Assembly (NCBI GenBank): GCA_020848855.1
Contig: JADLHH010000504.1
Span: 1 to 25,385 of the forward strand
Direction of reading: 5' to 3'
Length of the DNA stretch: 25,385 bases
Origin: Anaerolineae bacterium
GTDB taxonomy: Bacteria > Chloroflexota > Anaerolineae > Aggregatilineales > Phototrophicaceae
A program made the translations under genes and the position numbers. The notes beneath the pieces are model-generated. The model ran no database searches and was not told where the DNA came from. It saw only the letters and a list, made by a program, of their open reading frames with translations. The stretch's first letter is position 1. Every line of letters starts with the position of its first letter. Of this stretch, positions 1,036 to 23,179 are shown in pieces.

Positions 1036-3264
1036 TCAACCGGAAATAGAAATCGTCTCCAGCGACCGCAGATAATTCACCACGTCCCACCACTGTGACT
1101 CGCCAGCGTCGCCGCTGCAAGGCGGCAGAGTCCACCAGCCGTCGCGCGTCACGGCGGCGTACAGGTCTTCGTCGCGCAGGCGCGGCAGCCGTTTGACCAG
1201 TTCGTCCGCGTCCGGCGCGCCCTGCCACGCGGCGCACGCCGACTCGTAAAGCGCCTGCCCGCGCGCCAGCGACTCGCTCGTCGGCAGGCTGGTATTGACG
1301 ACCGCCGGGATCGGATTGCCGATAAGCTGGGCTTCCTCACCCGCCTGCGCCGACAGCCACACACCCACCACCACGATCACGACCGTCACCGCCGTCGAGC
1401 CGACCGCCACCGTCAGCGCCGCCGGGCTGAGGTCGAGCGCGTGATAGAAGCGGCGCAGCAGCGGCGACGCCGCGTACACCAGCGCCCCGACCACCCCCAG
1501 CAGCGCCAGAGCATTGAGCAGTGTCGGATCGCGCGACTGGATCACCGAAGCGGCAGCGGAAATATCCCAGTCGAACACCGCCCGCGTCCCGTTCACTTCG
1601 ACGACCGTCCACCACTCGCCGGGGCGAGCGATGTCGTCGCCGACCGACGTGTACAGCCCGCCGCCGGTGCTCTCCAGATCGTGCCACTCGCCGCGATAAT
1701 CGCGCGCCGGCTCGATCATGCGAAACACCACGTTCTGGTTTTCCAGCGCCGCCCCGCCCTGTTCGACCTGCACGTCGTAGGTGTTGATGCCGGGTCCTCC
1801 GGGCGTGATCGTCGTCGTGACGGTGGTGTCGCCCACCGTCTGCGATGCGCTCGGCGGCGGCGCGGTCTCCCCGGCGATCTCCGGCTGCGGGATCGGCGTC
1901 GCGCTCAGGTAGCCGACCGACACCACCACCAGCAGCACCAGCAGCGCTTCCAGCCGTAACGTGGGAATGAAATCGCTTACGCGGGCAGCCGCCGCCGACC
2001 AGCGCTGATAGCGCGCCGGGTCGATGGCGACGTGGTGCGCTGCCCCGACCGTTATCAGCAGCGCCACCAGGATCAGCTTGAGCAGCAGCGCCCCGCCGTA
2101 GCTCGACACCACGTCGGCGGGCGCGGTGAACCAGTTGAGCGCGCTGTAAATGCCGGTGGCGATCACCACCACCAGCCCCGCCGTGGCGATGCGCGTGAAG
2201 CGCCGCAGCGCGATCAGCAGCGCCTGACGGCGCGCGTCGCCGCTGTACGGCTGAAGCGCGACCGGCACAACCAGCGCCAGCGCCGCCGCGCCGCCCGCCC
2301 AGAAGCCGACCGCCATCCCGTGCAGCCAGTCGGACAAAATCGCCAGCCAGGGCAGCAGCAGCGACCCGGCGGCGTGGCTGCCAACGCTGAACGTGCCCAT
2401 CAGCAGCGCCATGCCCCAGATATTCGCCACCCAGAAAGCGCGCACTGTCTCCGGCTGGTTCTGGCGGAAGTAGAAGCTCGCCGCGAACAGCCCGCCCACC
2501 AGCACCAGCAGGATCATGCGCACGTTCCACGTGTCGCCAAAGGTGGTGCCGATGCGCACGACGTTGTATAACTGCCCGCTGATCACACGCCCCAGGTCGG
2601 CGTCGAAGAACACCATCGACTGCTGAAGCAGCGCCAGAATATTCCCGGCGAACGCGACCGCCAGCGCGACGCCGACAATCCAGTTCAGGCGGGTCATCAC
2701 GCGCGGCGGCAGCAGCCCGGCGGGGTATTTGCTGCTGCCCCACGCCGGAACCAGCACCATCGCGTAGACCGAGAACGTGCCGAGCAGCAGCACCGCCGAC
2801 GACAGCGCCAGCACCCGCCACACGACTTCCAGCATCAGCGTAGCTGACGCCTGACCGCTGCTCTCCCCGGCGACCGCGCCCGCCGCCTCGCCGACGAAGA
2901 ATACGCGCGTCTCGACGATGACGTGCCCGTCGCTGGCAAACGCCGTGCGCAGTTCGGCGACATACGCGCCATCCGGCAGATCGGACGGCAGCCTCACCGC
3001 CAGCAGCGCCAGATTGCCGGGATCGACGCCGCCTTCGGCAACCGTACTGCCCGCTTGATCGCGCACCGTCAGCTTGCTGAACTCCGGCTCCAGGTTCTCG
3101 CTGAACCAGTACTGTAGCCGTGCCGGGGCGCGCTCCAGCACCGCCCGGTCATCCGGGATCGAGCGGACGATGTAGCCATGCGCCGACGCCGGCAGCACCG
3201 GCGTCGCCAGCGACGATAGCAGCGCCAGCGTCAGGCTAATCCAGATGAAAATGATCCGGCGCAT
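1036..3264 (-). CDS. CopC-CopD-YtkA copper-handling fusion with a degenerate cytochrome c-like tail
   Basis: About 742 residues; an alternative ATG at 3279 adds five. A signal peptide (RRIIFIWISLTLALLSS...PASA) ends just before HGYIVRSIPDD, so the mature protein would start with the N-terminal His that binds copper in CopC. A second CopC-type His sits in SDGHVIVETRVFFVG (about residue 119 from the longer start). A CopD membrane domain follows (about 150-450), including the DWLHGMAVGFWAGG motif. Next come a YtkA/FixH-like beta domain (about 480-575), two membrane helices, and a C-terminal cytochrome c-like segment SLARGQALYESACAAWQGAP. The heme motif there should be CxxCH but reads CAAWQ, so covalent heme attachment looks impossible. 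CopC/CopD proteins bind copper outside the cell and move it inward. The gene is probably co-transcribed with the overlapping small membrane protein upstream. Confidence 0.9.
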   Translation of the reverse strand: MRRIIFIWISLTLALLSSLATPVLPASAHGYIVRSIPDDRAVLERAPARLQYWFSENLEPEFSKLTVRDQAGSTVAEGGVDPGNLALLAVRLPSDLPDGAYVAELRTAFASDGHVIVETRVFFVGEAAGAVAGESSGQASATLMLEVVWRVLALSSAVLLLGTFSVYAMVLVPAWGSSKYPAGLLPPRVMTRLNWIVGVALAVAFAGNILALLQQSMVFFDADLGRVISGQLYNVVRIGTTFGDTWNVRMILLVLVGGLFAASFYFRQNQPETVRAFWVANIWGMALLMGTFSVGSHAAGSLLLPWLAILSDWLHGMAVGFWAGGAAALALVVPVALQPYSGDARRQALLIALRRFTRIATAGLVVVIATGIYSALNWFTAPADVVSSYGGALLLKLILVALLITVGAAHHVAIDPARYQRWSAAAARVSDFIPTLRLEALLVLLVVVSVGYLSATPIPQPEIAGETAPPPSASQTVGDTTVTTTITPGGPGINTYDVQVEQGGAALENQNVVFRMIEPARDYRGEWHDLESTGGGLYTSVGDDIARPGEWWTVVEVNGTRAVFDWDISAAASVIQSRDPTLLNALALLGVVGALVYAASPLLRRFYHALDLSPAALTVAVGSTAVTVVIVVVGVWLSAQAGEEAQLIGNPIPAVVNTSLPTSESLARGQALYESACAAWQGAPDADELVKRLPRLRDEDLYAAVTRDGWWTLPPCSGDAGESQWWDVVNYLRSLETISISG

Positions 3265-3448
3265 CGGCTTTCTCGGCATGTTCAGGGCTGGCGGTTTCGG
3301 CGCGCGGCGCTTCGAAATCCGGGCGTGTATTGCGGCTTTTCACCCAGCTAATCCCCATGAAAACCAGGAAGATGGCAGCGGCGGCGAGCAGGATCAACTC
3401 GTCGTACGGACCGAGCGCGCCGTGCGCCAGGATGATTGGGATGGGCAT
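3236..3448 (-). CDS. Small single-pass membrane protein
   Basis: A 70-residue protein with GAGGA about 8 bases before the ATG. It has one membrane helix (about 12-32, DELILLAAAAIFLVFMGISW) and a charged tail ending in the His-containing DHFHLD. No family is recognised. Short membrane proteins of this look often sit beside copper or respiratory genes, but that is only a contextual hint. Its end overlaps the start of the CopC-CopD fusion by about 29-44 bases depending on the start chosen, so the two are probably translationally coupled, with this gene first in the operon. Confidence 0.7.
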   Translation of the reverse strand: MPIPIILAHGALGPYDELILLAAAAIFLVFMGISWVKSRNTRPDFEAPRAETASPEHAEKADAPDHFHLD

Positions 3449-3746: not shown

Positions 3747-4184
3747 CTATTCCGCACTCTGTTCAAGATATGGCTGCAAATCGTCCTGCCGATGATGATC
3801 TTTCTGGTTCTCAATATAGCTAATGACGAACGGTAGGTTTTTCGCGCCGAGCGTGAGGACACCATATTCACTTTGCCAGCGAAATCTGGTTTCGAGATCG
3901 GGGAAAGTCAAGTTTACTTCACATGACGAAGCCCCCTTGACCTGACCAACCCAGTCGCCGATAGCCAGCGTGGGACGAATCGATACCGCCACATGTATAT
4001 GATCCGCTATACCGTTTACAGCCAGGATCGGACACCGAAGCTCATGCGATTTAGAGCGAATTGCATTGGAAATAACCACTTCGACCGCCGGAGAAATCAG
4101 CGGCTCACGATTCTTCGTTGCCCAGACGATATGGTAATAGCATTTCCAGAAAGGCACTTCAACCCTCGACCACCTCAACAGCAT
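3747..4184 (-). CDS. REP-associated tyrosine transposase (Y1/IS200-like, RAYT)
   Basis: A 145-residue Y1 HUH transposase. The early strand reads FWKCYYHIVWATKNREPLI, the HUH motif is IADHIHVAVSI (His-Ile-His), and the C-terminal helix carries the likely nucleophile Tyr in FVISYIENQKDHH. Such enzymes cut and rejoin single-stranded DNA at hairpins. The gene is flanked by inverted two-hairpin REP elements (3685-3735 and 4238-4289), the classic RAYT arrangement, rather than by IS200 ends and a TnpB gene. The start at 4184 has no clear ribosome site, so translation may begin a few codons later at a GTG (VEVPFWK). The length is normal for the family and there is no frameshift, so it may be active. 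Confidence 0.9.
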   Translation of the reverse strand: MLLRWSRVEVPFWKCYYHIVWATKNREPLISPAVEVVISNAIRSKSHELRCPILAVNGIADHIHVAVSIRPTLAIGDWVGQVKGASSCEVNLTFPDLETRFRWQSEYGVLTLGAKNLPFVISYIENQKDHHRQDDLQPYLEQSAE

Positions 4185-10072: not shown

Positions 10073-10084
10073 TCAGGAGCTAGC

Positions 10085-10921
10085 GTGGACTCGTATCAGG
10101 ACTGGATTGGCAGGAGCGAAGAAATCGCGGACGTGATCACGGCGTCGCCCGCGCAGCGCATGGCGGCGACGCTCAACCGCGCCGACGTGTTCACCGAGGG
10201 GACGGCGCTGCCGTTGGGCTGGCACTGGCTGTATTTTCTGCCCGCCGCGCGGCTGGATCACAGCGGGGCAGACGGGCACACCAAACGCGGCGGCTTTCTG
10301 CCCCCGGTGACGCTGCCGCGCCGGATGTGGGCAGGCGGGCGGCTGGCGTTTCACCGCCCACTGCAAATCGGCGAGCGGGCGCTGAAGAAATCGACGGTCG
10401 CCGACGTGACGACCAAGCAGGGCAAGAGCGGCGAACTGGTTTTCGTGCTGGTGCGCCACGAGATCATCGGCGATGGCGGGCTGGCGCTGCTGGAAGAACA
10501 GGATATCGTCTACCGGGGGCTTTCGAGCGCGCAGCCGGCGCCTGTAAGCGAAGCGGCGCTCGCCCCTGCCGAGCCGCAGTTTTCGCGCGCGATCACGCCC
10601 GATCCGGTGCTGCTGTTCCGCTTCTCGGCGCTGACGTTCAACTCGCACCGCATCCACTACGACCGGACGTACTGCACCGATGTCGAGGGCTATCCGGGGC
10701 TGGTGGTGCATGGCAACCTGACGGCGACGCTGCTGCTCGACACGCTGCGCGACCACGCGCCGGATCGGACGGTGACGGCGTTCTCGTTCCGGGCGGTCGC
10801 ACCGCTGTACGACACCGCGCCCTTCCGCGTCGAGGGGCGCATCGACGGCAGCGAGGCGAAACTGTGGGCGCTGAACAGCGACGGCGGCTTGGCGATGACC
10901 GGGACAGCGGCGGTGGAGTAA
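10085..10921 (+). CDS. MaoC/FAS1-like acyl-CoA hydratase (mesaconyl-C4-CoA hydratase type)
   Basis: 278 residues from a GTG with AGGAG six bases upstream. It is a double hot-dog protein. The N-terminal half has FLPAARLDHSGADGHTKRGGFLPPV and LPRRMWAGGRLAFHRPLQIGE. The C-terminal half carries the hydratase motif LLFRFSALTFNSHRIHYDRTY, with the Asp and His expected for catalysis, followed by GYPGLVVHGNLTA. This is the pattern of HTD2-like and mesaconyl-C4-CoA/itaconyl-CoA hydratases, which add or remove water across an enoyl-CoA bond; the Chloroflexus enzyme works in the 3-hydroxypropionate bicycle. No other gene of that cycle is in the window, so the substrate is open. The gene stands alone behind a leader inverted repeat. 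Confidence 0.88.
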   Translation: MDSYQDWIGRSEEIADVITASPAQRMAATLNRADVFTEGTALPLGWHWLYFLPAARLDHSGADGHTKRGGFLPPVTLPRRMWAGGRLAFHRPLQIGERALKKSTVADVTTKQGKSGELVFVLVRHEIIGDGGLALLEEQDIVYRGLSSAQPAPVSEAALAPAEPQFSRAITPDPVLLFRFSALTFNSHRIHYDRTYCTDVEGYPGLVVHGNLTATLLLDTLRDHAPDRTVTAFSFRAVAPLYDTAPFRVEGRIDGSEAKLWALNSDGGLAMTGTAAVE

Positions 10922-10928
10922 GACCTTA

Positions 10929-10964
10929 ACGCAAAGGCGCAAAGGGAAAAAGAAAGACGCAAAG
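10929..10964. repeat. CGCAAAG-type intergenic repeat
   Basis: ACGCAAAGGCGCAAAGG followed by GACGCAAAG: short units at about 9-base period just after the hydratase stop. Related periodic stretches lie at about 15792-15810 (CCGCCAGGACGCCAAGA) and 22075-22143. Confidence 0.55.
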
Positions 10965-10969
10965 AAAAA

Positions 10970-10988
10970 GTGTACATCTGTCGTACAC
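10970..10988. repeat. Small inverted repeat
   Basis: GTGTAC, 7-base loop, GTACAC, between the hydratase and the downstream REP pair. No U-run follows, so it is not a standard terminator. Confidence 0.4.
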
Positions 10989-11035
10989 ATGTGACTTGTC
11001 AAAGCGCGTTCCGGCTTTATCCTATGAGTGTCAGC

Positions 11036-11086
11036 AGCCTGCTTCAGCGGGCTTGAATGCCTAGCCCGATGCTTTGAGCGTCGGGC
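11036..11086. repeat. Solo REP pair, copy 3
   Basis: AGCCTGCTTCAGCGGGCT (11036-11053) plus GCCCGATGCT-TTG-AGCGTCGGGC (11064-11086), the same two-hairpin layout and nearly the same sequence as the pair right of the RAYT gene. It sits 5 bases from the stop of the peroxidase gene, away from any transposase. Confidence 0.85.
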
Positions 11087-11091
11087 GCGCA

Positions 11092-13335
11092 TCACATCAG
11101 CAGACCGATCAGCACGTCATACGTCCGCCACAGCGCCCGCTTGAGCGGGTCGGGCGTCGAGCGGCTGGGCAGCACCGGCGGGAAGGTGTTCGCGCCGGGC
11201 TGGTCGAAGCTGTTGCTCCACCCCTCGCCCGTCCACAGAATATCCGCGCCGGGCACGCCGAAATCGATCAGCGACTGGTCGGGCGCATAGCCGTTGTTCT
11301 CGAACACGTTGTCGTGTATCCAGTTGTTCTCCGGCAGCGGACCGAGGTCGAACACCGTGTCGCGCGGGTAGATGATGTACAGGCTGGTCACCGCCGCGCC
11401 GACCGACTGGTTGCCCCGGAAGGTGTTGTTGAACACCTCGGTATTGTCGGCAGTCAGGATCATCAGCCCCGTGCCGGGCGGCACTTTGCTGACGATGGCG
11501 TTCGCCGCCCCGAAGTTGGCGTGATTGTTGTTCTCGATCAGGTTGTTGTAGACGCGGGTGTTGTAGCCGACCTTCGACGGGTTGTTCGGCAGCAGAAACA
11601 CCAGAATCCCGCCGGAATTGTCGTAGACGTGGTTGTTGTAGACCTCGGCGTCGGTGCTGTTCTCAATCTCGATGCCGGTCACGTTGCCGTAGACCGTGTT
11701 ATTGCGCACGACGATGGGTCCCCGGCTCTGCCCGACGTAGATTGCCGCGTCGGCGATGCCGGTCGCCGTGACGTTCTCGACGGTGATGTCGGTACATTCG
11801 ACCGGGTAGATGCCGTAAATCCCCGCGTTCTCGACGATCAGATTGCGGTAGACGACGCGCTGCGCTCCGGTCGTCAGCACGCCGTTGCCGATGGTATCGC
11901 GGATGCCGAAGCCTTCGAGCGTGAAGTCATCGCCCGTGGTGTTGAAGCCGTCGCTCAGCGTGTTTTGCCCGTCGATCCAGGGGCGATTCTCGCCGTTCAC
12001 GATGCCGCGTAGGGTGATGTTCGGCTGATCGACGTAGACTGTTTCGTGATAGATGCCCGGCTCGACCAAAACCGTATCGCCCGGCTGTGCCTGATCGACC
12101 ACCGCCTGAATCGACTCGCCCGCGCGGACGGTGAGCGTCTGCGGGGCGCGCGGCACGGCAGAGTCGAATGGCGGCGCGGTCGAACGCTCGACCAGCGCGC
12201 GGGCGGGGTTGTCGGCGTGCTGGACGACCGGCAAGCCGCTCGGCACGCGGTCAGGGATGGCGATCAGGTCGGATGGCTCGTCGGTGAGCGCGTACAGGAA
12301 CTGGATCAGGTCGCTGGTCTGCTGCGGGCGCAGGTCGAAGCCACGCACTTTCTCGTCAACCGTCATCCCGTCCTGCGACCCGCCGCCTTTGGCGTAGAAA
12401 TCGACCACCGCGTCGAGCGTGGCGAACGCGCCGTTGTGCATGTAGGGCGCGGAAAGCGCGACGTTGCGCAAGCCGGGCACGCGGAAAGCTCGCACGCTGT
12501 CGGGCGCGTTGACCGTCTCCGACTGACCGAGATCGGGGTTCGCCGGGTCGGTATCCGGCACGCCGAGTACGTGGAAAGTGTTATGGGTGAAGGTGGGCCA
12601 GGCGTGGCACTCGAAGCAGCGGGTCTGTGCACTGCGGAACACGTCGAAGCCGCGCCGCTGCGCCGGGGTCAGCGCGTTGAAATCGCCGGCGACGTTGCGG
12701 TCGAACGGCGAATTACTGCTGATCAGCGTGCGCTCGAAGGCGGCAATCGCGGCGGCGACGTTAGCGACCGTGACGCCGTCGTCGAACGACGCGGCGAACA
12801 TCTGCCGGTATTCCGGGATGGCGCGGAGCTGCTCGACCATCGAGTCCACGTCCGCGCCCATCTCGTTGGCGGCGGTCAGCGGCACGAGCATCTGATCTTC
12901 GAGCGACTTCGCCCGCCCGTCCCAGAACAGGCTGGTGGCATAGGCTGTGTTCCACAGCGACGGCGCGTTGCGGCGTAAATCCTCGCCGTGCGCCCCCGCC
13001 GCGACTGGACGCCCATCGCTGAAGCCGAGGTCGGGATGATGGCACGACGCGCACGACAGATCGTCATTGGCGGAAAGCACCGGATCGTAGAACAGCAGCC
13101 GCCCCAGCGCCGCCTGTTCGGGATCGACGGCGGAAATATCGGGGAACGGAGCCTGCAAGCCGTTGATCGAAGCCTCGGACTGGCGCGCGCCGCCGCCCTG
13201 CTCGCCCGCTGGGATGATCGGGTCTTCAGCGGCGGGCAGGAAGGCGAACGCCGTCGCCAGCCCGCACGCCAGCAGCAGCGGAATGAACAGCAGGTAGCGC
13301 CAGTACGAACGCTTCTTAGGCGGGGTTGGAGTCAT
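11092..13335 (-). CDS. Diheme cytochrome c peroxidase (MauG/CcpA-like) fused to a parallel beta-helix domain
   Basis: 747 residues. An N-terminal signal anchor (about 12-33, WRYLLFIPLLLACGLATAF) exports the protein. Residues about 60-360 are a diheme peroxidase: heme motifs CASCHH (95-99) and CFECHA (240-244), with family marks LGRLLFYDPVLSANDDLSC, RNAPSLWN, FWDGRAKSLEDQ, LRNVALSAPYMHNGAF and LIQFLYALT. From about 400 to 690 there is a right-handed parallel beta-helix with repeated turns such as IQAVVDQAQPGDTVLVEPG, NITLRGI, VRNNTVYGN, AEVYNNHVYDNSGGI and TEVFNNTFRGN. The enzyme part would reduce peroxide or oxidise a partner outside the membrane; the helix may bind a carbohydrate or partner protein. 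No ribosome site is visible before the ATG. A beta-helix fused to this peroxidase is uncommon. Confidence 0.93.
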   Translation of the reverse strand: MTPTPPKKRSYWRYLLFIPLLLACGLATAFAFLPAAEDPIIPAGEQGGGARQSEASINGLQAPFPDISAVDPEQAALGRLLFYDPVLSANDDLSCASCHHPDLGFSDGRPVAAGAHGEDLRRNAPSLWNTAYATSLFWDGRAKSLEDQMLVPLTAANEMGADVDSMVEQLRAIPEYRQMFAASFDDGVTVANVAAAIAAFERTLISSNSPFDRNVAGDFNALTPAQRRGFDVFRSAQTRCFECHAWPTFTHNTFHVLGVPDTDPANPDLGQSETVNAPDSVRAFRVPGLRNVALSAPYMHNGAFATLDAVVDFYAKGGGSQDGMTVDEKVRGFDLRPQQTSDLIQFLYALTDEPSDLIAIPDRVPSGLPVVQHADNPARALVERSTAPPFDSAVPRAPQTLTVRAGESIQAVVDQAQPGDTVLVEPGIYHETVYVDQPNITLRGIVNGENRPWIDGQNTLSDGFNTTGDDFTLEGFGIRDTIGNGVLTTGAQRVVYRNLIVENAGIYGIYPVECTDITVENVTATGIADAAIYVGQSRGPIVVRNNTVYGNVTGIEIENSTDAEVYNNHVYDNSGGILVFLLPNNPSKVGYNTRVYNNLIENNNHANFGAANAIVSKVPPGTGLMILTADNTEVFNNTFRGNQSVGAAVTSLYIIYPRDTVFDLGPLPENNWIHDNVFENNGYAPDQSLIDFGVPGADILWTGEGWSNSFDQPGANTFPPVLPSRSTPDPLKRALWRTYDVLIGLLM

Positions 13336-13706: not shown

Positions 13707-14987
13707 TCACGGGCGCGGGCGGCGCAGCCAGAAGACGAGCGCGTAGACGCACATGCCGAGCGTCAGCAGCGCCAGCCCACCGACCCACAGCGCGTACAGC
13801 GGTGCGATCAACGCCTGCGCGTCCACGTAGCCAATGCTGAGGACGCGCTCCAGATACACCTGCACCAGCCCCGCGCCCGCCAGCGCCAGCCCGCCGCCGA
13901 TGCTGCCCAAAACGACCAACCAGAACGGGGCTAACCCGGTCACGCGGCGGTTGTGCCCGCGCATTTCGGCAGATGCCTGATTGACCACGCCCAGGCTGAT
14001 CGCCACGACTGCCAGCAGCGCCAGCCTCGGCTGCAAATCGCTCAGGCGCGTGCCCGCCGTCCACTGGCGCAGCGGCGCTTGCAGCCCACCGAGCGTGCCG
14101 ACGCCCAGCACCAGCAGCAGGACGCCGAGCGCCATCCAGTGAGCAGCCAGCGTGTCGGTCGCGTTCCGGCTGGCGAAGGCGCGATAGGTATGCGACGCGA
14201 AAATCAGGTACAGCAGCGGGACGACGACCGCGCTCAGCCCGCCAAGCCAATCCGGGATGAAGCCGAGCGTCGCCAAGCCGGAGAGCGTCACCAGCGCCCC
14301 CGCCAGCGCCAGCAGCCCGGCGACAGTGTACAGGCTCATGCCCGCCCACAGCGGCGTCACGTCGCTGAAGCGGTGCATCAGCCAGAAGGCGAGCGCCACC
14401 GCCGCCAGCACGCAGCCGATGTAAATGGTCGCGCCGGAGGTCAGCGCGCCGAGCGCCGCCGCCAGCCGGTAATCGTCCGGCTGGATCAGGCTGAGCGCCG
14501 CGCCGACGGCGATCACGATCATGCCGATTGTCCAGATCAGCAGGATCGGCGCTTCGGATTGTTGTAGGGGCGCACGGCTGTGTGCCCGGTATGATCCTTG
14601 CCAGGTGCTTGTCGTCACCAGCGCGATCACGGCGATTTTAGCGACGGCGAACACCGGCGCAAGCGCGATCACCAGATTGAGCACGCCGGCGGCAACCGTC
14701 ACCATCACCAGCAGCGACCACAGCCCAACGGCGCTGCGCAGCAGCGAATTTTCGGCGGCATGGGTCGGTGCGCGTAAGGCGTAGATGCCGCCGCCGAGCA
14801 GCCCGCCGAGGACGGCGAAATCGAGCAGAGCAGCGGCGAAAGCGCTCACCTGATGGTATGGCAGCGAAGTCTGGGTGAGGTCGCCCGGCAGGAGCTTCAG
14901 CCCGGCGATCAGGCTGACGAGCGTGTACCCGATCAGCAGGGCGAGCGTCCAGACGAAAAAGCGGTAGGCGGCGCGGGCGTGGGTCAT
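13707..14987 (-). CDS. Heme-copper oxidase subunit I-like (NorB/CcoN family) membrane protein without CuB ligands
   Basis: 426 residues with about 12 membrane helices, the number in heme-copper oxidase subunit I. Family likeness is strongest in the second half: IPDWLGGLSAVVVPLLYL, then RAFASRNATDTLAAHW, GTLGGLQAPLRQW and FWLVVLGSIGGGLALAGAG, in the same order as CcoN/NorB. One candidate heme His (H45, LPYHQVSAF) is placed like the helix-2 ligand. The helix-10 HxH segment appears as LSDLQPRLALL, and no paired HH before IPDW or helix-6 metal His is seen, so oxygen or NO reduction looks unlikely. Residues about 132-142 (SYRAHSRAPLQ) are encoded by a 28-nt dispersed repeat. The gene starts 2 bases after the NorC-like stop, so the two form an operon. 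Confidence 0.75.
   Translation of the reverse strand: MTHARAAYRFFVWTLALLIGYTLVSLIAGLKLLPGDLTQTSLPYHQVSAFAAALLDFAVLGGLLGGGIYALRAPTHAAENSLLRSAVGLWSLLVMVTVAAGVLNLVIALAPVFAVAKIAVIALVTTSTWQGSYRAHSRAPLQQSEAPILLIWTIGMIVIAVGAALSLIQPDDYRLAAALGALTSGATIYIGCVLAAVALAFWLMHRFSDVTPLWAGMSLYTVAGLLALAGALVTLSGLATLGFIPDWLGGLSAVVVPLLYLIFASHTYRAFASRNATDTLAAHWMALGVLLLVLGVGTLGGLQAPLRQWTAGTRLSDLQPRLALLAVVAISLGVVNQASAEMRGHNRRVTGLAPFWLVVLGSIGGGLALAGAGLVQVYLERVLSIGYVDAQALIAPLYALWVGGLALLTLGMCVYALVFWLRRPRP
14564..14592. repeat. 28-nt GTAGGGGC repeat, copy 2, inside a coding region
   Basis: It begins GTAGGGGCGCACGGCTGTG, identical for 19 bases to copy 1 at 995, then diverges toward its 3' arm. On the minus strand it is read in frame as SYRAHSRAPLQ, in the loop between predicted helices 4 and 5 of the oxidase-like protein. 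Confidence 0.8.
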
Positions 14988-14989
14988 GG

Positions 14990-15760
14990 CTATCGCTCAA
15001 GCGTCTCCAGGAAGGCGAGAATGTCGTTGATCTGCTGGTCGTCGAGAACTTCGCCGAGGTTGCGCGCCATCGCATCCGGGAAGCCGGGAACGACGAACGC
15101 GCCGGGATCGAGGATCGAGGTGCGCAGGTACTCGCTCGCGCTCATCCCCGCCACGCGCGATTCGGCGCGGGTCGCCGCGCCCGCCAGCGACGGTCCGACG
15201 ATCACCACGCCGGGTTCGAGTGAGTGACAGGTGGCGCAGTTGGCGGGCGGGCGCGAGAACCAGTAATACCCCGCCTCAACCGGATCGGTCGGAATGGTCG
15301 GAGCGGCGCTGCTGGCGGAAACTGCCCCGGCGAGGCTCTCCGGCAGCCCGCCGCTGACGTTGATCGGGTTCGGCGGGAATGAGCCAGCGTTTTCATCGAC
15401 TGATCTGAGGAACGCCAGCAGGTGATCGGTCTCGGCGACAGTCAAACCGAAGCGCGGCATGATGCGGATCGCGTCCGGGTGAAACGCGCCGGGGTTGACC
15501 AGAAACGCGCGCAGGTAGGCTTCGCCGCGCGCGCTGTAGATGCGTGTCAGATCGGGGGCATAGTTGCCACCTAAGCCGCTCAACGTGTGACAGCCGGCAC
15601 AGTTGAACGCCCGCCACACAGCGAAGCCCTGCGCCGCGTCGTCGGAGACGGTGCGCACGTCGAACGCACCGCCTGCCAGCGGCACGACGATCACCAGCAG
15701 CAGCGCGGCGGCGAAGCAGATAGCAAAAGACAGGCGAGTTCCGGGCATGAATGCCAGCAT
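14990..15760 (-). CDS. NorC-like membrane-anchored diheme cytochrome c
   Basis: About 256 residues from the ATG at 15760; ATG 15748 is an alternative, and a TTG at 15808 is unlikely. One N-terminal helix (SFAICFAAALLLVIVVPLAG) anchors two c-type domains. The first matches NorC closely: WRAFNCAGCHTLSGLGGNYA, APDLTRIY, RIMPRFGLTVAE and LLAFLRSVDE. The second begins ANCATCHSLEPGVVIVGPSL and ends INDILAFLETLER. NorC normally has one heme and feeds electrons to NorB in nitric-oxide reductase; the extra heme domain is a departure. The gene directly precedes the oxidase-like gene. A good promoter lies at 15824-15851, giving a leader of about 55 bases. Confidence 0.88.
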   Translation of the reverse strand: MLAFMPGTRLSFAICFAAALLLVIVVPLAGGAFDVRTVSDDAAQGFAVWRAFNCAGCHTLSGLGGNYAPDLTRIYSARGEAYLRAFLVNPGAFHPDAIRIMPRFGLTVAETDHLLAFLRSVDENAGSFPPNPINVSGGLPESLAGAVSASSAAPTIPTDPVEAGYYWFSRPPANCATCHSLEPGVVIVGPSLAGAATRAESRVAGMSASEYLRTSILDPGAFVVPGFPDAMARNLGEVLDDQQINDILAFLETLER

Positions 15761-15791
15761 AAAGAGTCGCTTTGCAGAAAAAGAGTATTTG

Positions 15792-15810
15792 AACCGCCAG
15801 GACGCCAAGA
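15792..15810. repeat. GACGCCAAG-type intergenic repeat
   Basis: AACCGCCAGGACGCCAAGA, short units at about 9-base period in the leader of the NorC-like operon, similar in style to the repeat at 10929-10964. Confidence 0.45.
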
Positions 15811-16469: not shown

Positions 16470-19040
16470 ATGGCGGATTTGACCTCTCACGAAGCACCAG
16501 CACATCAGGCAAATGCGTTGCCCGTGATGCTGCCACCGGGCAAGCTGGTCGGGCGGGACGTGGTCCTGGCGCGCGTATATTCGCAGCTCAAGGAAAACAA
16601 GGCGGTTCTGGTCTACGGCGCGTCGGGCATCGGCAAGACGACGCTCGCAGCCACCCTCGCCAGCGCCTACACCGAACTTCCCGGCGGCGTGCTGTGGCTG
16701 GATGTCAACGATACGCCGCTGCCTGAACTGCTGGCGCGAGTCGGGCGCGCGTATGGCGTCCGCGAGGTAGCGACCAGCGATAACCCGCTGAATCAGGTCA
16801 ACGTCGCCATGAACGCGCTGACCGCCGCCAAGCCGATGGTGGTGATCGACGGGACGATTAACCCGCAGGCGACCGCCGAATTCGTCATGCGGTCATCGAA
16901 CCGCGTGCCGATCCTGATCCTGAGCGACGCCGAGCAGCAGGGACCGTGGACAAACATCCCACTGGGCAACTTGGAGACCGACGCCGCTGCGACGATGTTC
17001 AAGCACCTCGCCCCGGAGCAGACCGAAGGCATCGATGCGCTGATGGCAGCGCTGGACAACATCCCGTTCGCGATCGCCATCGCCGCTGGTGCGATGCGCG
17101 CCAACCGGCAGACGGCGGAACAGTTCCTGGCGGCGCTGCCCAAGCGCCCCGGCATCGCGCCGCCCCTGCTGACGCTGACAGCCAGTTTCAGTTCGCTGAC
17201 CAACCCGCTGCAAGGGCTGCTGCTGTTGATGGGCGCGACTTTCCGGGGCGAGGCATCGACCGAACTGATCAGCCTGATCGCCAACCAACCGGAAGATTCG
17301 ATCACGCAGGCGCTCAACCTGCTGGTGCAGCAGCATCTGGTCGAGCGCTTCCAGCGCTACGGCAGACCCTACTACCGCCTGCACCCGATCACGTTCACCT
17401 TCGCCCAGACGTGGCTGCGCGGCTCGGCGCGGCTGGATGGGCTGCAAAACCGTGTGCGCGACGCGATTCTGGCGTATGCCGGGCGCTACAGCACATCGCC
17501 GGAGCGGCTGGCAGCGGAGATGGAGAATTTCCTCGCCGCCGCGCGCTGGGCTGCCGACAAGGGCGACCGCGATGTCGCCAACCGCCTGACCGCCGGGCTG
17601 ATGCAGGCGAGCGAATTCGTCACCGGGCGCGGCTACGTATACGAGCTGCTGCTGCTGCGCCGTCTGGGAGCAAGCTCTACCAGCGCGTTCCCGGCGTACA
17701 CTGAAACGCCGCCAACACCGGTTGCCGAGGAAGAAGAAGCCCCCGAGGTCGAGTCCGAAGTGGGCGACGAAGACGAGGAACTGGAAGACATCCTCGACGA
17801 AGCGGCAGACGAGGCGGACGACTGGGAAGACGAGGACGAGAGCGAGTTCGAACCCGAAGCCTGGGTTCCGCCGGCGCGGGCTGCGGTCACCGACCAGGAC
17901 GACGAAGACGAGGACGAGGAAGAAGAAGCAAGCATCGTCGACGACGTGCTCGATTTTGAGGAAGAAGGCGAAGAAATCGAGGAGAGCGAGCCGATCTCCG
18001 AGCCGGTGATCACCGACGAGCTTGACCGCCTGCGCGCCGAACTGAACCGGGAACGCGCCGCCGGCAACCGCCGTCAGCAGGCGGAACTGCTGCGGCAGAT
18101 CGGCGAGGAGCAGGTGAAGCGCGGGCAGGAAAACGAAGCGATTGCCAGCTACTCCGACGCGCTGAACGTGTACGAGGCGCTGAATGATTCCGGCGGGCTG
18201 CTGGCGACGCTGGAAACGCTGGCGAGCCTGACGACCAGGACCGACAATTCGCAGGCGGCGGTGCTGCACGCGACGCGCGGCGTCAAGCTGGCGGAAGAAC
18301 TGGGCAGCGACACCCGCCACAGCAACCTGCTGGTGCTGCTCGGCGACGCCCGGCAGCAGCTTGGCGAAAGCGATGAAGCCATCGAAGCGTACACCGAAGC
18401 GCTCGACCTCGCCCGCACCGCCAACGACAAACGCAGTATCGCGCTGGTGCTGTACAAGCTGGGCTTCGCGCAGCTTGACGGCGGCGATTCCGGCACGGCG
18501 ATCCAGTCGTGGGAAGAAGCGCTGACGTTGTTCCGCGAACAGGGACGACGCGACTACGAAGGCAGGACGCTCGCCGGGCTGGGGACAGCATCCGGCGAAT
18601 CCGGGCACTGGAACGAGGCGATCAAGTTCTACACGTCGGCGCTGTATATCGCCCGCGAACTGGGCGACCGCGAGGAAGAAATGCTGCGCCTGAGCGACCT
18701 CGGCTACGCGGCGGTGCAGGCACACGAACTCGGTCAGGCGGTGCTGCGCTACCGACAGGCACTGCACCTCGCCTACGAGAGCAACAACCGCGAGAATATC
18801 GTCAGCACGACGGTCGACCTGGGGCGGCTGCTGGTGGAAAGTCAGCGCCATCTGGACATCACCGAGATGCTGGTACAGGCGGCGATGAAATTCGACCCGG
18901 CAGACCGCGACCTGCGGCGGTTGATGGAGCGCATCGAGGACGAGCGCCCGGTCGTGCCGGAGAACATCAAGCAGGCGCAGGTCAGCGGGACGGCGCAGGA
19001 CTACGCCGCGAACGCCTATTCCCTGCTGGACAGTGCGTAA
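16470..19040 (+). CDS. NB-ARC-type STAND ATPase with acidic linker and TPR repeats
   Basis: 856 residues. Residues 1-28 lead straight into an NB-ARC ATPase: VGRDVVLARV, the P-loop YGASGIGKTTLA (50-58), Walker B PMVVIDGT (about 122-129), a GLPLAL-like box NIPFAIAIAAGAM (about 197) and an MHD-like YYRLHPITFTFAQ (about 302-312). Then comes a region of about 95 residues dominated by Asp and Glu (about 419-512), then TPR repeats to the end, seen as QENEAIASYSDALNVYEAL, ESDEAIEAYTEALDLARTA and HWNEAIKFYTSALYIAREL. STAND ATPases switch between closed ADP and open ATP-bound oligomers when the repeat domain senses a partner. No N-terminal effector domain and no DNA-binding domain is present, so the output is unknown. 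The protein is probably cytoplasmic. Confidence 0.9.
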   Translation: MADLTSHEAPAHQANALPVMLPPGKLVGRDVVLARVYSQLKENKAVLVYGASGIGKTTLAATLASAYTELPGGVLWLDVNDTPLPELLARVGRAYGVREVATSDNPLNQVNVAMNALTAAKPMVVIDGTINPQATAEFVMRSSNRVPILILSDAEQQGPWTNIPLGNLETDAAATMFKHLAPEQTEGIDALMAALDNIPFAIAIAAGAMRANRQTAEQFLAALPKRPGIAPPLLTLTASFSSLTNPLQGLLLLMGATFRGEASTELISLIANQPEDSITQALNLLVQQHLVERFQRYGRPYYRLHPITFTFAQTWLRGSARLDGLQNRVRDAILAYAGRYSTSPERLAAEMENFLAAARWAADKGDRDVANRLTAGLMQASEFVTGRGYVYELLLLRRLGASSTSAFPAYTETPPTPVAEEEEAPEVESEVGDEDEELEDILDEAADEADDWEDEDESEFEPEAWVPPARAAVTDQDDEDEDEEEEASIVDDVLDFEEEGEEIEESEPISEPVITDELDRLRAELNRERAAGNRRQQAELLRQIGEEQVKRGQENEAIASYSDALNVYEALNDSGGLLATLETLASLTTRTDNSQAAVLHATRGVKLAEELGSDTRHSNLLVLLGDARQQLGESDEAIEAYTEALDLARTANDKRSIALVLYKLGFAQLDGGDSGTAIQSWEEALTLFREQGRRDYEGRTLAGLGTASGESGHWNEAIKFYTSALYIARELGDREEEMLRLSDLGYAAVQAHELGQAVLRYRQALHLAYESNNRENIVSTTVDLGRLLVESQRHLDITEMLVQAAMKFDPADRDLRRLMERIEDERPVVPENIKQAQVSGTAQDYAANAYSLLDSA

Positions 19041-21028: not shown

Positions 21029-22042
21029 TCAGGCGGGGTCAAGCGACACCGGATTCGCCAGCAGCCCGGTCAGAAGGGCGATGCAGGCTTCCACGTCGCG
21101 GGTGTCGACCGTCTCGCTGTTGGTGTGGACGTAACGGCACGGAATCGAGATGCACCCGCTGGGAACGCCCGCCCGCGCAAGCTGGATGCCCGCCGCGTCG
21201 GTCGTGCCCATTGTCAGCAGCTCAAGCTGGTAGGCGATACCATCAGCCTGGGCACGGTTGACCATCCAGTCGACGACGGCAGGCGGAACGACCAGTCCGC
21301 TGTCGTGGACTTTGATCGCCGCGCCGTCACCGAGCCGAACCGCCATCTTGGGATTCTTCGCCATATCGCCGGTGCTGGTCACGTCAAGGGCGATGCCGAT
21401 ATCGGGGTTGATGCCGTAGGCTGCCGGGCGCGCGCCGCGCAGCCCGACTTCCTCCTGCACGGTGAAGACGAAATAGACTTCGTTGGGCGTCTGCTTGTTG
21501 AGACGGCGCATGGCTTCCAGCCCCACAACGCAGCCGATGCGGTCGTCCATCGACTTGGCGACCAGCCGCGTGCCGCGCTGCTCCAGCGGACGCCAGAACG
21601 CCGCCGGGACACCGGGTTTGAAATCGCCGTTGCCGTCGCCCGTGCCCACGTCGATGTAGAAGGCAGTTAGATCTGGGACGCTGGTGCGCCCAGTACCAAA
21701 GTAATCGTGCGCGCCGATGACGCCGACCGTGCCATCCTCGAAATAGACGCGGTTGCCCAGCAGCGTCGTGTTGATCAAGCCGCCGATGGCGCTGAAGCGC
21801 AGATAGCCGCTGTTCGGCTCGGCGAAGGTCGCCATGATGCCGATCTCGTCCATGTGGGCGGCGACCATGATTTTCGTAGCGTTAGCCCCACCCTGCCCCA
21901 CCCGGCAGATCAGGTTGCCGAGCGGGTCGACGGTGATTTCGTCGGCGTAGGGTTCGGCTTCGGCGCGGATAATTTCGCGGACGCGGTGTTCGTAGCCGGA
22001 CGGACCCCAGGCTTCGACGAGTTTCTTGATGAGTTCGTTCAC
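21029..22042 (-). CDS. M42 family metallo-aminopeptidase, copy 2
   Basis: 337 residues from a GTG at 22042, fixed by AGGAG eight bases upstream; the longer frame to 22096 is not favoured. M42 marks in order: LVEAWGPSGYEHRVREII, VAAHMDEIGIMATF (metal His and Asp), AKSMDDRIGCVVGLEAM (bridging Asp), VQEEVGLRGARPAAYG (catalytic and metal Glu pair), ALDVTSTGD and CRYVHTNSETVD (last metal His). These are cytoplasmic dimetal peptidases forming 12-mer tetrahedral shells that trim short peptides; some members were first named endoglucanases. It lies about 100 bases after its paralogue, separated by an imperfect inverted repeat. Confidence 0.95.
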   Translation of the reverse strand: MNELIKKLVEAWGPSGYEHRVREIIRAEAEPYADEITVDPLGNLICRVGQGGANATKIMVAAHMDEIGIMATFAEPNSGYLRFSAIGGLINTTLLGNRVYFEDGTVGVIGAHDYFGTGRTSVPDLTAFYIDVGTGDGNGDFKPGVPAAFWRPLEQRGTRLVAKSMDDRIGCVVGLEAMRRLNKQTPNEVYFVFTVQEEVGLRGARPAAYGINPDIGIALDVTSTGDMAKNPKMAVRLGDGAAIKVHDSGLVVPPAVVDWMVNRAQADGIAYQLELLTMGTTDAAGIQLARAGVPSGCISIPCRYVHTNSETVDTRDVEACIALLTGLLANPVSLDPA

Positions 22043-22074
22043 AATGTGCGCTCCTGTTGCGTTCAATTGATTCA

Positions 22075-22143
22075 CCACAGCGACCGCAGAGCACACAGAG
22101 AATTTTGATAAAGTATTCTCTGCGATCTCTGTGTGCTCTGTGG
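22075..22143. repeat. CACAGAG-type imperfect inverted repeat
   Basis: The arms begin CCACAGCGACCGCAGAGC and end TGTGTGCTCTGTGG, 28 bases each around a 13-base loop. Each arm is built of CACAGAG/CGCAGAG units at 9-10-base period. It sits between the stop of the upstream M42 gene and the ribosome site of the next. Confidence 0.65.
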
Positions 22144-22144
22144 T

Positions 22145-23179
22145 TCAGATAAAGGCTTCTCGCGTGATCCGGTTGAGCGCGGCTTTGATCAGCCGCAGCG
22201 TATTATCGTAATCGTCGCGGTGCAGGTAGGCAGTCGGGCTGTGGATGTAACGGCACGGCATCGAGATCACCGCCGTTGGCACGCCGCCATTCGCCCGGTG
22301 GATCGCGCCGCCGTCTGTGCCGCCGCCCAATTCGGTCTTGAGCTGGTACGGGATGCCCTCGGCGTCCGCCGTCGCGCGCACGAAGGCGAGCAGGCGCGGA
22401 TGGGTGATCATGCTCCGATCCATGACCGACAGCGCGGGTCCGCCCTGCAGGCGGCAGGTGGGGTTGATTTCGTCCGGCTCGTCGGGGTCGGCGAGCGGAT
22501 TCGGGATATCGTTGGCGGTCGTGCCTTCGAGGACGAAGGCAGCGTCGGGGTTGAGCGTCTGCGCCGCGACCTGCGCGCCGCGCAAGCCGATTTCTTCCTG
22601 CACGGTGAACGCCGCCAGCACGTCAACCGGGTACGGTCCCCCCTGAAGCACGTCGATCAGCAGCGAGCAGCCGACGCGGTCGTCGAACGATTTGCCGCGC
22701 AGCATCTTGTCGCCAATTTCCATGAAGCGGCTGTCGAAAGCGATGCGGTCGCCGGGCTTGACCTTGCCCGCCGCCTCGTCCTTGCTGGTCGCGCCGATGT
22801 CGATGCGCAGGTTCGCCAGCTTGACCGCGTTCTGGTCTTTATTGAGGTGAATAGGCGTCCAGATGATGACGCCGGGCACGCTGCCGATGCGCACGCGCAG
22901 ACCGGGCAGGATGCGCTCGTCAATGCCGCCGATATTGCTGAAGCGGATCAAGCCGTCGCCGTCGAAGCCGCGCACCATGAAGCCGATCTCGTCCATGTGC
23001 GCGGCGATCATCACGCGCACACGAGGATCGCCCGTGCCCTGCTGGAGCGCGGTCACGCCGCCGAGGGCGTTGATGCGGATATCGGTGGTGTGATCATGAA
23101 TGGCAGGAATGACAATTTTGCGAACGGCGTCTTCACTTCCAGAGACGCCGACCGCCTCGGAGAGTTCTTTGATAAGCAT
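22145..23179 (-). CDS. M42 family metallo-aminopeptidase, copy 1
   Basis: 344 residues: LSEAVGVSGSEDAVRKIV, MIAAHMDEIGFMVRGF (metal His and Asp), GKSFDDRVGCSLLIDVL (bridging Asp), FTVQEEIGLRGAQVAAQ (Glu pair), FVLEGTTANDIP and CRYIHSPTAYLHRDD (last metal His). All five dimetal ligands are present. It is clearly homologous to the next gene downstream but diverged, so the pair may form mixed or specialised peptidase shells, as reported for other organisms with several M42 paralogues. A TATACT hexamer about 35 bases before the ATG (minus strand of 23215-23220) is a possible -10. Confidence 0.95.
   Translation of the reverse strand: MLIKELSEAVGVSGSEDAVRKIVIPAIHDHTTDIRINALGGVTALQQGTGDPRVRVMIAAHMDEIGFMVRGFDGDGLIRFSNIGGIDERILPGLRVRIGSVPGVIIWTPIHLNKDQNAVKLANLRIDIGATSKDEAAGKVKPGDRIAFDSRFMEIGDKMLRGKSFDDRVGCSLLIDVLQGGPYPVDVLAAFTVQEEIGLRGAQVAAQTLNPDAAFVLEGTTANDIPNPLADPDEPDEINPTCRLQGGPALSVMDRSMITHPRLLAFVRATADAEGIPYQLKTELGGGTDGGAIHRANGGVPTAVISMPCRYIHSPTAYLHRDDYDNTLRLIKAALNRITREAFI

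Follow-up and report, generated by a model that had tools for sequence, protein, structure and literature searches.

What does a respiratory enzyme do once the ligands of its hemes and metal are gone? This question is raised by a pair of genes on the reverse strand of contig JADLHH010000504.1 (assembly GCA_020848855.1) from an Anaerolineae bacterium of the Phototrophicaceae (Chloroflexota); the stretch analysed, here called the window, is 25,385 nt long. The pair encodes a homologue of NorB with 426 aa and 12 transmembrane helices (13707..14987) and a diheme NorC-like cytochrome c (14990..15808), which is listed with a TTG start and probably begins at the ATG at 15748 or 15760. A first-pass annotation had described the region 13707..15760 as a NorC-like cytochrome paired with a ligand-poor protein resembling oxidase subunit I, and this observation is confirmed. 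Judged from its sequence, the pair belongs by descent and fold to the lineage of the cytochrome-c-dependent NO reductase (cNOR), and by the defining ligands it is no NO reductase. On balance, we consider it somewhat more likely than not that the pair is a cofactor-free descendant of this enzyme, in which the shell docks the cytochrome for an electron relay on the outer face of the membrane.

The membrane subunit is predicted, in a confident model, to adopt the 12-helix fold of subunit I of the heme-copper oxidases (HCO), as first proposed, and an unrelated fold was not found. Its superposition is closest to NorB; CcoN of the cbb3 oxidase falls below cNOR in both structural score and identity. 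The ligand columns discussed here rest on a His/Glu assignment and P. aeruginosa numbering, the calcium site excepted, which we take to be those of cNOR. The column of the helix-II heme b His is occupied in the window by Ala51 (14835..14837), that of the helix-VI FeB His by Gly185 (14433..14435), those of the helix-VII FeB His pair by Ser236-Gly237 (14277..14282) and those of the helix-X HGH by Gln319-Pro320-Arg321 (14025..14033), all on the reverse strand, so the alignment puts no His at the FeB/CuB sites of this subunit. Across 86 members of the ligandless family (72 from a first round and 14 further ones), the columns II, VI, VIIa, VIIb, X-b3 and X-b hold a His in 0, 0, 0, 2, 2 and 0 proteins, respectively. 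The first-round alignment of the 72 members with four true NorBs gave 0 at II, VI, VIIa and X-b, 1 at VIIb and 2 at b3. The ligand loss is conserved among the homologues, since 82 of 86 have none of the six His and P0026, L008, L011 and L109 have one each. All six are found in 60 of 61 true NorBs, and L120, a true cNOR of the same class with all six His, serves as a control on the alignment.

Other parts of the active site are altered as well. The heme b3 His column holds Gln in 71/86 members, Gln319 being that of the window. The FeB-site Glu of helix VI and the helix-VIII Glu are each retained in 0/86, although the former column is His in six of the 86, which counts against a cofactor-free reading. 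In cNOR, 132 columns show an invariance of 97% or more. Of these, 25 persist in 80% or more of the ligandless family, mostly Gly, Leu and Trp plus QxYLER, and none of the ten invariant His columns does (His in 0-2 of 86 each). The proton path suggested by the first-pass annotation finds no support, since both Glu and these ten His are gone. The same holds for H45 as a remaining heme ligand: it lies six residues off the heme b column, its own column is His in only 30 of 72 members, and it was rejected for this lack of conservation. Alignment and model together indicate that the NorB-like subunit has kept its 12-helix shell and lost the known ligands of heme b, heme b3 and FeB. It would be unable to reduce NO or O2 or to move electrons across the membrane, and the loss of the ligand columns across the family supports the non-catalytic role proposed at the outset.

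The cytochrome begins with a hydrophobic helix, followed by a NorC domain (match to 3o0r_C, E 5.9e-10) with the heme motif CAGCH (residues 70-74, 15587..15601, reverse strand) and a second cytochrome c domain with the motif CATCH (residues 191-195, 15224..15238, reverse strand). That it is a dedicated partner is borne out by gene order: in clade A, a cytochrome gene lies upstream of the NorB-like gene at 14 of 15 loci, the window and 13 of the 14 others; in the true cNOR set, NorC was located upstream at 58 of 62 loci. L006 has no cytochrome gene nearby, and its genome holds a 177-aa frame that matches residues 43-141 at 37%.

PMC4816578 describes a calcium ion in cNOR that bridges the two b hemes as well as the subunits, with NorB E135 and NorC G71 and Y73 as ligands. 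Of 58 true NorC ORFs, 57 have this Tyr (NorC Tyr73), the exception, L034, being a fragment without the motif. In the ligandless family, the motif is readable in 13 of 14 NorC domains (that of L007 is interrupted by the contig edge), and all 13 have replaced the Tyr with Ala, Asn, Ser, Gly or Pro. The window cytochrome has Asn, its CAGCH being followed by GLGGNYAPDL where most true NorCs have GEGAYYAPxL. The absence of the Tyr from the NorC-like protein implies that the partner changed in step with the heme loss. On the NorB side, the E135 column is Glu in only 46/86 ligandless members.

The extra heme domain noted at first sight is present, but it is not unusual, because 37 of 58 true NorC ORFs are diheme as well. 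In the window, this domain shares 46-53% identity with the small cytochrome c of three distant loci (L141, L143 and L144), compared with 38-39% for its counterpart in the three best true diheme NorCs. In the case of L005 and L010, these identity ranges overlap or come close to it, and the corresponding split in the tree is weak; the second domain may therefore be ancestral.

The role in electron transfer that had been envisaged for the pair can apply only to the outer-face cytochrome and not to the NorB-like subunit, in which no known heme site is left. Gene order and conservation suggest that the shell would serve as a membrane dock, and the diheme cytochrome would relay electrons on the outer face alone, linking a respiratory electron carrier to a redox enzyme outside the cytoplasm. 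Candidate docking residues are E380, R381 and Q391, located where helices XI and XII end on the outer side, the first two belonging to the QVYLER motif (residues 376-381, 13845..13862, reverse strand), which stands at the outer end of helix XI as in cNOR. Where a cytochrome gene is adjacent, the three residues are conserved at 13, 14 and 13 of 14 loci, respectively, and where none is, at 1, 1 and 2 of 13 (Fisher p 9.8e-6, 7.5e-7 and 6.9e-5, kinship ignored). The association is not independent evidence, because the nested set L108-L119 accounts for 12 of the 13 loci that lack the cytochrome gene. L006, which keeps all three residues without a cytochrome gene nearby, also speaks against the docking function. 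Counting along the alignment matches Q376 and E380 to cNOR Q411 and Q415. These are placed in a predicted proton pathway by PMC4816578, the available text of which does not contain the word "interface" and reports that a Q415-type variant keeps 98% of its activity.

The favoured redox partner would most often be the protein encoded downstream on the same strand (11092..13335, 747 aa), a fusion of a MauG/MbnH-like diheme domain (CCP_MauG, PF03150, 1.7e-55) with a right-handed beta-helix. Its nearest relative with a solved structure is the di-heme enzyme 6e1c (E 5e-48). At the position of Tyr314, 6e1c likewise has a Tyr, presumably the Tyr ligand of MauG/MbnH enzymes, and the peroxidase 2c1u has a Met. 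The protein shares the CCP_MauG domain and this Tyr with MauG/MbnH (PDB 3L4M, 6E1C), but it differs from them in carrying a beta-helix half that passes TIGR03805 and in scoring below both NCBIfam cut-offs (TIGR03791, 237.9 vs 443.85 bits; TIGR04039, 231 vs 362.85). A reading frame beside it (10073-11095, reverse strand) was rejected as a gene, its translation resembling a shadow frame, and MaoC/FAS1-DH-like matches fall on the plus-strand ORF 10085-10921.

Of the 15 clade-A loci, 8 have a MauG-beta-helix gene no more than about 3.1 kb downstream (window, L001, L004, L005, L007, L011, L139 and L140). The other seven have none nearby; in two of them (L006 and L010), the ligandless NorB gene is immediately followed by one for a GSDH (glucose/sorbosone dehydrogenase) instead, and L002 and L009 lie near contig ends. 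In L006 and L010, the GSDH-type dehydrogenase is perhaps the redox partner. Upstream in L006, there are genes that resemble, by eye, those for a sugar ABC transporter and a sugar kinase. Orthologues of the window's MauG-beta-helix protein (68-79% identity) occur in 10 of 12 family genomes, the match in G009 being partial; G002 and G006 have distant CCP-type matches only and no close orthologue. In a sample of 396 genomes of the class, four have an orthologue of at least 68% identity, three of them together with a NorB-like gene and G378 with only a frame-broken match to it. Matches at E<=1e-60 were found in 60/396, many forming a separate group of about 46-56% identity. The enzyme does not need the pair, since such distant genes occur in many genomes without a NorB-like gene. 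A small cytochrome c gene directly precedes the distant gene in three of seven loci read, namely the L141, L143 and L144 mentioned above.

A dock alone does not account for all features of the membrane subunit. Seven family-specific residues (H266, encoded at 14190..14192 on the reverse strand, R274, N336, R343, R348, R422 and R423) lie, by HCO topology, at the cytoplasmic end. The subunit would have gained an Arg/His/Asn set at this face, which a role as a pure anchor does not explain. All seven are present in 59/86 members and at least five in 79/86, against 0/61 cNORs with at least five. It is conceivable, although we give it no great weight, that the subunit acquired a new, non-redox function there, for example binding the head groups of anionic lipids or polyprenyl phosphates, aiding a glycosyltransferase or signalling, and that the cytochrome is an ancestral partner that acts at most as a redox sensor. 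The nested members L108-L119 point in this direction. These twelve are not a demonstrated single clade (L115 and L119 stand apart from the other ten in the tree), and they retain most or all of the set without an adjacent cytochrome gene; in their genomes, the cytochrome matches are, among the matches listed, to the second domain only. This suggests that the membrane subunit can work without the cytochrome. In ten of the twelve, the gene comes directly after a gene from one and the same cluster, or overlaps it by the start as listed; the L132 representative of this cluster was identified as a PMT_2 glycosyltransferase (PF13231, 1.6e-9). The overlap is four bases in L128, L129, L132, L135 and L136, and the cluster's gene stands just before the ligandless NorB gene in L127, L130, L131, L133 and L137. 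However, positive charge is usual at this face of membrane proteins, and L011, L042, P0056 and P0058 persist with E-R-Q kept and much of the set lost, L011 and L042 having the cytochrome. In five cytochrome-bearing loci (L002, L004, L005, L007 and L008), H266 is replaced by Arg. A somewhat more speculative version is that the HCO fold was exapted for a non-redox membrane task at the cytoplasmic face, for example dealing with lipid-linked phosphates for a GT-C glycosyltransferase, the cytochrome serving as a redox switch in the larger branch; if true, an HCO-superfamily subunit would exist as a whole family without heme or metal of its own. Beside the docking function, which we continue to prefer, the cytoplasmic set and the glycosyltransferase-linked members leave room for a second, non-redox role that the subunit may have.

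It is very unlikely that the subunit has remained a heme or metal enzyme by relocating its ligands, for example to H205/H266/H283 or H45. The frequency of His at H266 (77/86) and H283 (69/86) would agree with this, but H205, H266 and H283 are found at, or close to, the cytoplasmic ends of helices VI, VIII and IX, off the former heme plane. H266 gives way to Arg in the five loci named above, a His at position 205 is limited to 45 of 74 clade-A members, H45 is poorly conserved, and NorC has lost its calcium/propionate Tyr as well. That the gene is a decaying pseudogene or a sequence artefact is barely credible: 107 of the 132 cNOR-invariant columns are lost, yet the frames are intact in relatives, new family-specific residues and the gene order are conserved, the fold is confident and dN/dS is low.

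This last point rests on four close pairs with dN/dS of 0.087, 0.138, 0.311 and 0.316, ratios by which the ligandless family is under purifying selection. A protein search returned 59 homologues with a lowest identity of 36%, all but one of 375-437 aa. In a maximum-likelihood tree from a quick search, with long branches flagged, a branch with an SH-aLRT of 100 separates 85 ligandless proteins from 17 cNORs and two other HCOs, so that a single loss suffices. Proteins shorter than 340 aa (P0051), L122 and the duplicates L105, L125 and L126 were left out, and the cNOR rows are L120 and 16 out of 18 loci selected for their spread. The true cNOR set comprises 62 NorBs recognised in L012-L080 plus L120, without L042; after a length filter, 61 entered the invariance comparison. 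As the locus search pattern included QVYLER-like letters and the best 80 of 423 loci were used, that search could have overlooked members such as L108-L119.

With cNOR (NorBC; PDB 3O0R, 4XYD), the window family shares the NorB fold, the NorC-type partner directly upstream, which can be diheme in both, and the QxYLER motif; it differs in lacking the known heme and FeB ligands, both Glu and the calcium-ligand Tyr. The eNOR of Chloroflexota belongs to the same superfamily and phylum and also has an altered ligand set, an active-site Gln substitution according to the available text of PMC8756737. In L121, taken as eNOR-like from its Gln, this residue replaces the helix-VI FeB His and the II, VII and b3 His are kept, whereas the window family has lost all six His columns. 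Compared with CcoN of cbb3, the HCO heme and copper ligands are absent (columns via the NorB alignment), and the partner is NorC-like by its first domain.

Because a conserved family shares the ligand loss, its former enzyme shell must have another task. A conserved, selected and cofactor-free HCO branch would represent the pseudoenzyme counterpart of a respiratory enzyme, and a natural test of which parts of cNOR serve partner docking and which catalysis. In searches of the open-access literature, no description of ligandless NorB proteins was found. Surveys of the nitrogen cycle are affected: 24 of the 59 homologues carry a name from their source, and 16 of these 24 are called nitric oxide reductase subunit B, an activity against which the absent ligands argue. 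Genomes called NO reducers on the basis of such a protein are probably mislabelled. A query with a true cNOR NorB gave one match in 11 of 12 family genomes and none in G012; all 11 coincide with the family locus, and no second cNOR-type NorB was found by this query. A strong PF00115 subunit I match is present in 12/12.

A search across the class gave matches at E<=1e-3 in 20 of 396 genomes, and a ligandless member is present in 15 of these. The remaining five are the true cNOR L120, three other HCOs (L121-L123, one short) and L124, a frame-broken stretch in which tblastn finds 0/3 window proteins. The contig of L007 is labelled Bacteroidetes, groups closely with L008 from Chloroflexota and is probably misbinned.

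Elsewhere in the window, the reverse strand encodes a TIR-domain match under the cut-off (248-979), a CopC-CopD fusion of 747 aa with Pfam domains above the cut-off and NCBIfam single-protein models under it (1036-3279), an IS200-like Y1 transposase (3747-4184) and two M42 peptidases in tandem (21029-23179). The forward strand carries a TPR protein (16470-19040) with an N-terminal AAA-type match under the cut-off and an acidic low-complexity stretch.
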